From the NCBI GenBank assembly GCA_945888325.1, contig CAMDAC010000003.1, positions 62,001-126,000 of the forward strand: a stretch of 64,000 bases of DNA. Direction: 5' to 3'. The notes under the pieces were generated by a model. That model ran no database searches. It saw only the letters and a list, made by a program, of their open reading frames with translations, and was not told where the DNA came from. The number at the start of each line of letters is the position of its first letter. Within the stretch, counting starts at the first letter, position 1. This DNA comes from Candidatus Sulfopaludibacter sp. SbA3 (GTDB taxonomy: Bacteria; Pseudomonadota; Alphaproteobacteria; Caulobacterales; Hyphomonadaceae). Made by a program: the position numbers and the translations under genes. Positions 54,921 through 58,349 of this stretch are shown in pieces.

Positions 54921-55208
54921 ATGACCGCCTATGTAATCCTGATCCGCGAGAAGCTGCGCGACGCTGACGCGATGGCGAAATATGGCGCGGCGGCCGGCGC
55001 CGCGCGCGGCGATCACAAGATCACGCCGCTGGCCTTCTACGGCAAGCATGAGGTGACCGAAGGCGCGGCGGCCGACGGCGTTGTCATTCTCGCCTTCCCG
55101 ACGATGGCCGAGGCGAAGGCCTGGTATGAGAGCCCGGAATACACGGCGGCCAAGGTGCACCGGTTCCAGGCGGCGGATTACCGGGTCTTGTTTGTTGAGG
55201 GCGTTTAA
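54921..55208 (+). CDS. DUF1330-family protein
   Basis: 95 aa. Ferredoxin-like DUF1330 fold: TAYVILIREKLRDADAMAKY, AFYGKHEVTEGAAADGVVIL, AKAWYESPEYTAAKVHR. Function unknown. GGAGGAG lies seven bases before the ATG. Divergent from the aminotransferase gene. Confidence 0.9.
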   Translation: MTAYVILIREKLRDADAMAKYGAAAGAARGDHKITPLAFYGKHEVTEGAAADGVVILAFPTMAEAKAWYESPEYTAAKVHRFQAADYRVLFVEGV

Positions 55209-55211
55209 CCC

Positions 55212-55290
55212 ACCGCTCATCCCCGCGAAGGCGGGGATCGGGATTGGCAAGAGTCGCACGAGATCCCCGCCTGCGCGGGGATGAGCGGGT
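55212..55290. repeat. Paired REP-like inverted repeat
   Basis: ACCGCTCATCCCCGCG at 55212 and its near-perfect reverse complement ending at 55290 form arms of about 28 bp; each arm is itself a palindrome (ATCCCCGC..GCGGGGAT). This is the widespread alphaproteobacterial REP/BIME type. Confidence 0.75.
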
Positions 55291-55358: not shown

Positions 55359-55580
55359 TGTCGTCAAGACGTATCCAGCCCGGCCCAGGCCTGCGGCCGC
55401 GCGGCCTGGGCGAGGCGCAGGAGCAGACAGAATCACACATCATGGCCTCGAGCGCGCTGCAACCCACAAGTATGCGCCTAATTGCCGAGCCGGCGAGGAG
55501 AAATGGATGAGCACATCCCTGCGCGCGAAAACATCAAAACCCACATAATCCGCACCAAGATCAATTCGATTTTTCTGGTT

Positions 55581-55609
55581 TTGTTCTGATTGTAGCTTCA
55601 GCTCATAAT
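55581..55609 (+). promoter_or_regulatory. Possible sigma-70 promoter upstream of the NOS-like gene
   Basis: TTGTTC, 17-bp spacer, CATAAT. Four of six and five of six consensus bases. It would start transcripts about 20 bp before the 68-codon frame and 350 bp before the NOS-like gene. Confidence 0.35.
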
Positions 55610-55630
55610 GAAGCCAAAGGTGAGCGGAGC

Positions 55631-55837
55631 ATGCGCGTGTCGAGCAATTCCTTAGGCTGCGCCCTTGAGTATAGACTTTTGGATATATGGTCGTCTGTCG
55701 CGCTCAGTTTACAAGGCAAGGCAGAATTGAATTTATCCGAGTTGTCTGAGAGCGTGCGGCAAGGCGACAACATAAGAGGCGGATGCTTCAAATCTGCTCG
55801 TGCGATGGAGTCTTTGAAGATTTTTCACACAGCGTGA
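55631..55837 (+). CDS. Possible 68-residue protein upstream of the NOS-like gene
   Basis: Starts MRVSSNSLGCALEYRLLDIW, then NLSELSESVRQGDNIRGGCF, ends KIFHTA. AAGGTGAGCGGAG precedes the ATG and a possible promoter lies just upstream. It shows no family I know and could be a chance frame or a remnant of a regulator. 129 bp separate it from the NOS-like ATG. Confidence 0.3.
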   Translation: MRVSSNSLGCALEYRLLDIWSSVALSLQGKAELNLSELSESVRQGDNIRGGCFKSARAMESLKIFHTA

Positions 55838-55966
55838 ATGCTGGGCATAGGGCATTTCCCACAAAGAGCATCCATCGTTCTTTGCGCTCGAACACTGATG
55901 CGGATTGCAGGCCTTTCAACATAGCAGACAAGCAAAAAGCCAGTTGGGCTACATCAGAGAGAATCC

Positions 55967-57127
55967 ATGAAGGCTCCAGAAGCGCAGTGTCCCTTTAGTC
56001 AAAGTGTTTTGCCCGAGGCTGCAGAAGCTAAGAGCTTCTGGCTTTCAGAGGCTCATGATCCCATTTTGGAAGCAGAGATTTTTCTGCTCCAGATGGGACA
56101 TGAGACGCGGATAGCGGGCATAGAACGCCGGATCCAAATGATGAAGGAAGAAGTCAACCGCACCGGCGTATGGAACCAAAACTACGAGGAACTCACTTTT
56201 GGTGCCAGGGTTGCGTGGCGCAATAGCATACGCTGCATCGGCCGAATGTTCTGGCCCTCGCTCAAAGTCTTTGATGCGCGTAGCATGACGCGGCCAGATG
56301 AGATTTTCGAAGCCATTCTAGCCCATATTCGGTGGTCGACAAATTCGGGAGATCTGCGACCGGCGTTGACCGTCTTCCGGCCGGGAGAGCCGAGGATCCG
56401 GATCCTGAACTCGCAGCTGATTCTTTATGCGGGATACTTATCAGCCGACGGGAAAATTTTCGGTGATCCGAAGAACGTCAAATTGACAAATTTTGCGATG
56501 AAAATGGGTTGGCAAGGCAGCGGAACTGAATTCGACATCCTTCCAATTATTATAAAAGTCGGCGAGCAGCCGCCGGAACTGTTTGAGATTCCGGCGCCAG
56601 ATGTACTCGAGGTACAGCTACAGCACCCCGAACGCCCGGAGTTCGCGCGCTTGGGACTGAAATGGTTTGCTCTTCCTGCAGTCTCGGGAATGGCCCTAGA
56701 TTTAGGGGGCATCCAATACTCTGCCGCTCCGTCTAGCGGCGTGTATCAAGGCACTGAAATCGGAAGTATCAATCTGGGGGACCCAAGACGGTATGCAAAG
56801 CTGGAAAAGGTAGCAGCGATTCTTGGGCTGGACATGAGCCTGAAAAATCCTCTCTGGCGTGATCAGGCCATGGTGGAGCTGAACCGGGCCGTCTTGCATT
56901 CCTTCCGACAGGCAGGTGTGCGGATTATGGATCATCACTCCCTATCTGAAAGCTTCCTAAAGTTTCGGCGCAGAGAGGCCGAAGCAGGGCGAGAGGTTTT
57001 CGGCCATTGGCCATGGTTGGTGCCTCCGATGTCCTCCAACCTGGCCGCACATTGGCATGACCCTACTTTGAAACGGGTGATCCAAAAACCAGGTTACTTC
57101 TATCAGCCCGCACCAGAACTGATGTAA
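55967..57127 (+). CDS. Nitric oxide synthase oxygenase-type heme-thiolate protein
   Basis: 386 aa, the size of stand-alone bacterial NOS oxygenases, which make NO and citrulline from arginine with electrons from separate reductases. Conserved: AWRNSIRCIGR with thiolate Cys-90 and Trp-84, GWQGSGTEFDILP (181-193), GLKWFALPAVSGM, QGTEIG with the substrate Glu-264, DHHSLSESF and HWPWLVPPMS with Trp-350. No N-terminal zinc hook and no reductase domain. By eye against mammalian iNOS, Gln257, Trp366 and Arg375 are Lys-197, Val-259 and Ile-268 here. GC is far below its neighbours (one 60-base line 45% versus 67% in scoB); likely acquired. Confidence 0.93.
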   Translation: MKAPEAQCPFSQSVLPEAAEAKSFWLSEAHDPILEAEIFLLQMGHETRIAGIERRIQMMKEEVNRTGVWNQNYEELTFGARVAWRNSIRCIGRMFWPSLKVFDARSMTRPDEIFEAILAHIRWSTNSGDLRPALTVFRPGEPRIRILNSQLILYAGYLSADGKIFGDPKNVKLTNFAMKMGWQGSGTEFDILPIIIKVGEQPPELFEIPAPDVLEVQLQHPERPEFARLGLKWFALPAVSGMALDLGGIQYSAAPSSGVYQGTEIGSINLGDPRRYAKLEKVAAILGLDMSLKNPLWRDQAMVELNRAVLHSFRQAGVRIMDHHSLSESFLKFRRREAEAGREVFGHWPWLVPPMSSNLAAHWHDPTLKRVIQKPGYFYQPAPELM

Positions 57128-57271
57128 TGCTGAGACGCTGGCTGCGTATTGACCTGCCCCAAGAATCTTGGACCAGCGCCAACTTGCCGACCGACTTTTG
57201 GACAGGCGCGAATGTCGCAATAGGGCCACAACGAGACGTAGTTCATATTGGCGCGGAACAGGGCCGCGCCC

Positions 57272-57901
57272 TTACGAAACCAGCGTCGCTTCCGTCTTCG
57301 CTTTCACTTCGTCCAGCGTCACGCCGGGGGCGAGTTCGAGGAGTTTGAGGCCGCCGGGGACGACGTCCATCACGCAGAGGTCGGTGATGATGCGGTTGAC
57401 GACGCCCTTGCCGGTGAGCGGCAGGGTGCAGGCTTTCAGCACCTTGGATTCGCCGGCCTTGTTGGCGTGATCCATGACGACGACGATGCGCTTGACGCCG
57501 GCAACGAGGTCCATCGCGCCGCCCATGCCTTTGACGAGCTTGCCGGGGATCATCCAGTTGGCGAGATCGCCGTTCTCGGCGACTTCCATGGCGCCGAGGA
57601 TGGCGATGTTGATATGGCCGCCGCGGATCATCGCGAAGCTGGTGGCGCTGTCGAAAAAGCTGGTGCGCGGAAGCGTCGTGATCGTCTGCTTGCCGGCGTT
57701 GATGAGGTCGGCGTCTTCCTCGCCTTCATACGGGAACGGACCCATGCCGAGCATTCCATTCTCGCTTTGCAGCGTCACATCCATGCCTTCCGGGATGTGG
57801 TTGGCCACCATCGTCGGAATGCCGATGCCGAGGTTGACGTAGTACCCGTCGCGGAGTTCCTTTGCGGCGCGGGCCGCCATGTCGTCGCGTGTCCAAGGCA
57901 T
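57272..57901 (-). CDS. scoB: Succinyl-CoA:3-ketoacid CoA-transferase subunit B
   Basis: Transfers CoA from succinyl-CoA to acetoacetate together with ScoA. 209 aa. [20 protein letters not shown], catalytic Glu in [34 protein letters not shown] and NWMIPGK are diagnostic. AAGGAG eight bases before ATG 57901. A membrane-protein gene separates it from scoA by overlaps of 1 bp and 4 bp, so all three are one operon, last in the tyrosine-catabolism row. Confidence 0.95.
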
Positions 57902-57905
57902 AGTT

Positions 57906-58349
57906 TCAGCTCCTTGTCGATAATGAAGGCCAGGCGGCGACTGTGCCGATGGCAAAGCATGCGCCGAGCGCGAATACGAGCGCCGATGAGACGGCGCGAA
58001 ATGTGGACGTGTGCTCCGGCAGCCAGAGCGACGGCACGAAGACGGCCGCCGCGCGCAGCAGCAGTACCGCCGATATCAGCACGAGGGCGACGCGGAGCAG
58101 TGGCAAGCGCACCATCAGGCCAGCCGCCGAGAAAGCGATCAGTGCCCAGACGAGCAGGATGCCGGCGATGCCGGCCGTAATCACGTTAGGAAGCATGGCG
58201 CCGCGCTCCACCGCAGCGGCCATCCGGTTGCCGGCGCCGAGAAAACGGTACCAGTCCGCGCCGCCGAAGATGCACGCCACGTGCGCGGCGGCGGCCGCAA
58301 GGCTGCCTGCGCCGGCGGCTAGCAGCCAGGGGTTGGCAGGCGGGTTCAT
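57906..58349 (-). CDS. Four-TM membrane protein between scoA and scoB
   Basis: 147 aa with four hydrophobic helices (about 8-28, 55-78, 82-105, 118-140) and short loops ([20 protein letters not shown]). Family not recognised. ATG overlaps the scoA stop (TGATG) and its stop lies 4 bp before scoB, a tight insertion into an otherwise two-gene pair. Confidence 0.75.

Follow-up and report, generated by a model that had tools for sequence, protein, structure and literature searches.

A nitric oxide synthase-family oxygenase on an apparently foreign segment of an alphaproteobacterial chromosome, from a clade with predicted changes in the cofactor and substrate pocket

The NOS gene and its surroundings

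Within the window (the whole 64,000-nucleotide stretch of DNA that was analysed), a gene on the + strand at positions 55,967–57,127 (ATG at 55,967, stop codon ending at 57,127) encodes a 386-residue oxygenase of the nitric oxide synthase (NOS) family. A Pfam scan of the product returned NO_synthase (PF02898; 449.7 bits; E = 9.1e-135; cut-off, 22.7 bits) as its one domain, with residues 35–383 aligned to positions 8–360 of the 362-position profile, a full-length match preceded by 34 residues. The six NOS motifs named in the original prediction were all present in the translation (AWRNSIRCIGR, residues 83–93; GWQGSGTEFDILP, 181–193; LKWFALPAV, 231–239; GTEIG, 262–266; DHHSLSESF, 322–330; WPWLVPPMS, 348–356). 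Both bacterial and mammalian NOS chains in the Protein Data Bank matched the product, the closest solved relative by sequence being the Bacillus subtilis NOS 1m7v (E = 6.2e-101). NCBIfam produced no match for the window NOS, a null result that is not evidence against NOS identity because the Nostoc and Rhizobium NOS were likewise unmatched. On these alignments, membership in the NOS oxygenase family is beyond doubt and chance can be dismissed as a cause of the match. The genome, searched in six frames, holds this gene as its single NOS copy.

The gene lies on a segment of foreign composition (1,846 bp; 55,426–57,271), delimited from GC, codon usage and the spacers of congeners, in which the NOS was the only gene recognised. 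In 500-bp windows the GC fraction was 0.48–0.54 inside the segment versus 0.60–0.71 outside it (50–64 kb), third-position GC was 0.57 for the NOS versus 0.81–0.88 in five neighbours, and the codon-usage cost was 1.66 for the NOS versus 0.65–0.95 in ten neighbours. The edges were placed where they are because homology between the window and the same spacer in two congeners (G010 and G022) stops at 55,425 and restarts at 57,272. Directly to the left, comparison with these two genomes identified a stub of a resident gene on the − strand (55,364–55,423; last 19 codons and stop) that was cut by the insertion, reading LLRLAQAARPQAWAGLDTS before the stop versus LLLRLDQLARPKAWAGIDTS at the end of the frame in G010 and G022. 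Upstream of the NOS, on the + strand, is a low-GC region (55,426–55,966; GC 0.48 for 55,501–55,966) with a longest stop-to-stop stretch of 108 codons, also on the + strand. This region presumably holds the NOS promoter; a search of its + strand found no sigma-70-like site, and no promoter was recognised. Excluding the NOS itself and the frames on its opposite strand, the segment wholly contains no open reading frame of at least 80 aa.

The right end of the segment carries a dispersed repeat on the + strand (57,150–57,248) with two further copies in the genome (G000), at C15:3811-3910 (81% identity) and, for positions 57,150–57,229, at C2:258683-258763 (75%). The repeat is 80–100 bp in length and starts TGACCTGCCCCA. 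To the left of the insert is a REP-like palindrome (55,213–55,288; inverted repeat with 27-nt arms, 96%) that was also matched on contigs C1, C5, C8 and C49 of the genome.

The native neighbours are a DUF1330 gene on the left (54,921–55,208, + strand; PF07045, 77.3 bits) and scoB, for 3-oxoacid CoA-transferase subunit B, on the right (57,272–57,955, − strand; TIGR02428, 340.6 bits), the latter matched in 40 of the 41 genus members searched (window genome included). The neighbours scanned encode an aromatic aminotransferase, DUF1330, scoB, scoA and an FAA hydrolase, and none among them is a reductase, globin or arginine gene, as had been predicted. The neighbouring tyrosine-type genes were considered as NOS partners and rejected, for congeners keep those genes without a NOS. 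No NOS was present at this locus in the ten congeners read. DUF1330 adjoins scoB in seven of the ten, with a gap of ~14 to 1,040 bp compared to 2,063 bp in the window genome; G019 and G012 had no DUF1330 match, with scoB adjoining the aminotransferase, and the stretch taken from G030 gave a match to neither.

Absence from the locus in all ten congeners and presence in one of 42 genomes of the genus point to a recent horizontal acquisition, and by its sequence the NOS gene appears to have come from another bacterium. The DNA flanking the NOS upstream and downstream had no blastn match to 12 other NOS loci, and the whole segment, searched against plasmid records, had one match, confined to the NOS gene of Rhizobium rhizoryzae (65%), so that no donor was found.

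Occurrence of NOS among Alphaproteobacteria

Counting the window genome each time, NOS was found in one of 42 genomes of the genus, one of 101 relatives, two of 398 genomes of the order, one of 385 of the class and three of 398 of the phylum, the last three sets being samples of larger groups. Among plasmids, 14 of 72,556 records matched NOS, including records from Rhizobium, Novosphingobium and Jannaschia; 11 of the 14 were taken, leaving out H4 and H5, which share a genus with H2, and H12 (Staphylococcus aureus). G398, which belongs to the same family as the window, encodes its NOS as the C-terminal portion of a long protein in an open frame of 1,083 codons. Ahead of the NOS part in this protein (L002, L009; G398:C8) is a weak Fer2_BFD match (21.1 bits; cut-off, 26), and by eye the N-terminal part is reductase-like, with the look of a Sorangium-type NOS in an alphaproteobacterium.

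In two further genomes (G927 and G1072; family scan on G927 only) the NOS directly follows a radical SAM gene, and on the Novosphingobium and Jannaschia plasmids, too, a gene annotated as radical SAM precedes the NOS. These loci represent a second group of alphaproteobacterial NOS, placed directly after radical SAM (L003, L004, L006:4403-8141 and L007:2965-7173), with a glycosyltransferase near the pair in three of the four loci (L004, L006 and L007); this arrangement is likely a biosynthetic cluster. Outside the bacterial records, two unannotated phage entries filed as Staphylococcus phages (OR845001.1 and OR850403.1) carry a NOS-like gene, possibly host DNA.

Literature searches found no work on NOS in Hyphomonas (one keyword match concerned Klebsiella, by its title) and none on 'nitric oxide synthase oxygenase' by that name with Alphaproteobacteria. 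A passage in PMC9500659 cites a Silicibacter NOS for biofilm signalling. Alphaproteobacterial NOS is therefore rare yet already known, from Silicibacter in print and from annotated plasmids of Rhizobium, Novosphingobium and Jannaschia. The expectation that a NOS would be unusual in Hyphomonas-like bacteria holds for the genus; that a NOS would be a surprise in the class as such is not supported, given these records and G398.

A seven-member clade and its active site

In a maximum-likelihood tree of 22 NOS rows, midpoint-rooted for drawing only, the window protein fell with other bacterial NOS into a clade of seven alphaproteobacterial rows (support 100/100), which together with the NOS of B. 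subtilis and Geobacillus and one archaeal NOS formed a set of ten (99/97). Members were sought with the motif YQGTE[IV]GxxN across 84,980 species genomes, which yielded 29 stretches, five of them NOS by tblastn (L012, L015, L019, L023 and L035) and 24 without a NOS match; R. rhizoryzae (L005) entered from the plasmid search instead. An alignment of two NOS sequences searched in genome_contigs and viral_contigs found no match. The motif scan is blind to members that lack the string, so that sampling of the clade is incomplete and its recognition depended in part on Gln-261; with five of the seven members found by it, the motif letters are not independent evidence, and positions 153, 256, 259, 267 and 268 were free. 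Identity to the window NOS was highest for a Roseicyclus metagenome-assembled genome (MAG; L035, 67%), followed by Rhizobium skierniewicense (L019, 62%), R. rhizoryzae (61%), a Rhodobacter MAG (60%) and two Pseudorhodobacter MAGs (59 and 58%).

Pairwise dN/dS was ~0.10 for the window versus Roseicyclus (0.27/2.70, with dS saturated), ~0.11 for the two Rhizobium (0.159/1.398) and ~0.14 for Rhodobacter versus Pseudorhodobacter (0.112/0.785), values from which the clade protein is judged to be maintained by selection. The NOS of one Pseudorhodobacter MAG (L015:5415-6740) has in-frame stops near its C-terminus, as a pseudogene or an assembly error. The structure alignment excludes L015 and L005, L015 was counted only where letters exist, and the B. 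subtilis and Geobacillus rows lack their ends. An AlphaFold2 model from five clade sequences had a mean pLDDT of 49.8, with residues 234–276 <50, and was left unused.

Eighty columns were near-invariant outside the clade (identical in at least 14 of the 15 outside NOS), and only two of them, at residues 256 and 268, carry clade-wide replacements. Residue 268 is Arg in 15/15 outside NOS versus Phe in five clade rows, Ile in one (Ile-268 of the window) and Val in one; residue 256 is Phe in 15/15 outside NOS and Ser in the window, with Phe absent from all seven clade rows. When the Nostoc NOS is aligned to an nNOS chain and to an eNOS chain, Arg is likewise seen at the 268 position and Phe at the 256 position. 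According to part of PMC13291759, Arg375 of iNOS hydrogen-bonds the pterin H4B and Glu371 holds the substrate; since Glu371 aligns with Glu-264, Arg375 corresponds to Ile-268 of the window.

The surrounding pocket positions also differ. Residue 259, at the Trp366 position, is Val in five clade rows and Ile in two (outside: 10 Trp, 3 His and 2 Phe), and residue 153 is Leu in 7/7 clade rows (outside: 13 Arg and 2 Gln). iNOS Phe363, Trp366 and Arg260 correspond to nNOS Phe584, Trp587 and Arg481, and Phe363 and Trp366 line the NOS pocket. Residue 153 aligns with nNOS Arg481 (the iNOS Arg260 position), which is given in part of PMC10343299 as one of the residues expected to take part in substrate-site binding and was set as flexible in docking. 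Residue 261 is Gln in the clade, by selection of the search motif, and 10 Met, 4 Val and 1 Leu outside.

Other positions are retained. All 22 rows keep Trp-84, Cys-90, Gln-150, Tyr-260, Glu-264, Asn-269 and Trp-348, and Trp-350 is kept in 21/21 rows that reach that far. The two catalytic residues put forward in the original prediction are as stated: Cys-90 is the Cys of W-R-N-x-x-R-C, with heme ligation predicted, and Glu-264 lies at the iNOS Glu371 position. Trp-350 aligns with iNOS Trp457, which presumably stacks on the pterin, and corresponds to chain position 329 of 1m7v. The stacking Trp of B. subtilis NOS is given as W325 in part of PMC9500659, a number that does not tally exactly with position 329. 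By alignment, then, the stacking Trp of canonical pterin-dependent NOS is present and the pterin Arg is replaced, and because the Arg375 position is Ile-268 the window NOS was not filed as canonical pterin-type. Val-239, at a position tied to NO release in part of PMC9500659, is Val in mammals and in 6 of the 15 NOS outside the clade. A Cys-Pro near one end (window residues 8–9) occurs in 7/7 clade rows; it was rejected as a clade marker, being present in 7 of the 15 other NOS too. A Cys-Pro of this kind resembles a heme regulatory motif and may be one. Judged by these aligned residues, the clade is one in which the cofactor and substrate pocket is remodelled.

Partner genes and electron supply

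At the two Rhizobium loci, the NOS closes a conserved gene set (75–85% identity between loci) of a permease, an MddA-like methyltransferase (62 bits, below the model cut-off of 270), a 460-aa protein without a Pfam or NCBIfam match, an SDR and a weakly AMP-ligase-like protein; R. skierniewicense has one more same-strand gene after the NOS. The set up to the NOS spans L005:2025-9137 and L019:1255-8000. None of it was found in the 64-kb window except for a distant SDR match (29%), and none was matched at the MAG loci of the clade in the stretches compared.

A search of the window genome for Flavodoxin_1 had no match, the same search having matched in 10 of 14 control genomes. The genome encodes one NAD_binding_1 protein (288 aa; ferredoxin-NADP reductase-like, below the NCBIfam cut-off) and one globin-family protein (140 aa), the latter away from the NOS locus. 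Most bacterial NOS are described in part of PMC3701330 as using redundant cellular reductases and probably tetrahydrofolate. Electrons for the window NOS would most likely come from a housekeeping system.

Discussion

The explanation best fitting the data, held as probable and well short of certain, is that the window encodes a horizontally acquired NOS-family heme-thiolate oxygenase that converts L-arginine to NO with a non-dedicated reductase and changed pterin binding. Such an enzyme would act as a cytoplasmic homodimer taking single electrons from that reductase, would activate O2 at the Cys-ligated heme, and would carry L-arginine through N-hydroxy-arginine to citrulline and NO, with the NO or nitrite serving in signalling or stress protection. 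For a reduced pterin (tetrahydrofolate or other), Trp stacking and the heme propionate would be the only contacts holding it, and affinity or selectivity would be altered; binding without Arg is most likely because that position is Ile, Val or Phe in 7/7 members. L-arginine to NO would still be the likeliest reaction. Counting against it are the several altered pocket positions, the biosynthetic setting of the Rhizobium members and the lack of a recognised promoter. The original prediction of a stand-alone NOS oxygenase stands; it did not notice that the insert is foreign and low in GC, that the protein belongs to this clade or that two active-site residues are replaced.

How far the changed pocket alters the chemistry admits other answers. 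A broader proposal, possible but given well under even chances, is that this alphaproteobacterial branch rebuilt the core of the enzyme, the pterin Arg and pocket Phe, constant across the bacterial, archaeal and mammalian NOS compared, having been lost and the protein kept by selection, so that it would use another pterin or none, or another guanidine, and could be passed on as one gene. With the Arg375, Phe363, Trp366 and Arg260 positions changed, a substrate other than free L-arginine may be used, and it seems unlikely, yet deserves weight, that the protein is a NOS-fold guanidine oxygenase acting on a different substrate (for example, an arginine derivative or an amine without a free alpha-carboxylate), supplying a small-molecule pathway with NO or an N-hydroxy-guanidine and captured here without its partner genes. 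The Leu at the nNOS Arg481 position throughout the clade, the exchange of the pocket aromatics at 256 and 259 for Ser and Val/Ile, and the gene set closed by the NOS in both Rhizobium members would fit this, the biosynthetic-looking Rhizobium set hinting at a part in metabolite synthesis for which a gene on its own would not suffice. However, Gln-150, Tyr-260, Glu-264 and Asn-269, taken to be the L-arginine-holding positions in known NOS, are all kept (Tyr, Glu and Asn being in the pattern that found five of the seven members), residue 153 varies to Gln in two NOS outside the clade too, and the Rhodobacteraceae MAG and window members have no partner genes in the stretches compared. A NOS working free of pterin, with the second electron drawn from the reductase or another residue and the pterin Arg dispensable, would account for the replacement of that Arg in 7/7 members beside unchanged heme and substrate-Glu residues, but is improbable given that Trp-350 and Trp-363 are kept in 6/6 members reaching that far. 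Trp-363 is assumed to occupy the iNOS Phe470 position, which is Phe, Tyr or Trp in other NOS.

Two further alternatives concern the insert rather than the enzyme. The alien codon usage and GC, the presence in one of 42 genomes of the genus, the lack of a recognised promoter in the upstream region and the in-frame stops of the relative L015 would all suit a recently landed, unexpressed or decaying copy without function in the host species. Against this, the frame is intact over 386 codons with its heme and Glu residues kept, and dN/dS is ~0.10 in the comparison with the nearest relative, a ratio with saturated dS that reflects the donor lineage as an average and is of little use for the time since transfer; a functionless passenger is held to be about as unlikely as the alternative substrate. 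An assembly chimera or contaminant, to which the sharp shift of composition at both segment ends might point, is very improbable: the segment lies at 117.4–119.3 kb inside a 199.7-kb contig of a genome whose listed completeness is 99.94% and contamination 0%, a genus-native gene is interrupted at the left junction, and the right-end repeat has copies at other places in this genome.

Under the favoured reading of a transferred NOS with changed pterin binding, the locus is a case in which a NOS entered a single genome of a genus as an islet of one gene. PMC9500659 describes the catalytic pocket as strongly conserved across all NOSs, heme, pterin and arginine forming a tight triangle. A natural clade that lacks the pterin-bonding Arg and keeps the rest offers a ready-made test of the pterin's role, and of whether NOS chemistry runs with other cofactors or substrates.

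Comparison with known NOS systems

The window NOS resembles the stand-alone bacterial NOS (type I bNOS) of B. subtilis (1m7v) and Geobacillus (2flq), which with the archaeal NOS are the group nearest to the clade in the tree, in consisting of the oxygenase only, with no fused reductase or globin, and in the aligned heme Cys, the Glu, Gln, Tyr and Asn and both pterin-side Trp. It differs from these in the replacement of the pterin Arg by Ile, of the pocket Phe by Ser, of the Trp366 position by Val, of Met by Gln and of the Arg260 position by Leu, and from B. subtilis, which has Ile, in Val-239. The plasmid NOS of R. rhizoryzae (WP_165130551) and that of R. skierniewicense belong to the same clade (61–62%) and share the active-site changes, although residue 268 is Phe and residue 259 Ile in them where the window has Ile-268 and Val-259; unlike these set-closing genes, the window NOS stands alone. 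The nearest relative found, from the Roseicyclus MAG, has the same motif and Val at 268 on a 6.5-kb contig without the Rhizobium partner genes, and is unlikely to be the direct donor of the 53% GC copy, as its NOS has a GC of 0.67, like its own contig (0.65).

More distant systems share the family and differ in architecture or setting. The NOS of Silicibacter sp. TrichCH4B, alphaproteobacterial like that of the window and compared by description, reportedly has a role in biofilm formation and symbiosis, going by the title of Rao et al. 2015 as cited. Natural-product NOS such as TxtD, RufN and PtnF lie in biosynthetic clusters, several with a nitrating P450, whereas the neighbours scanned around the window NOS serve aromatic amino acid metabolism and CoA transfer and are also present in congeners that have no NOS. 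Sorangium-type NOS carry an N-terminal reductase, as described in part of PMC3701330; the window NOS belongs to the same oxygenase family without the N-terminal ferredoxin/FAD/NAD reductase part, and the long, Sorangium-like NOS of G398 is 37.5% identical to it.
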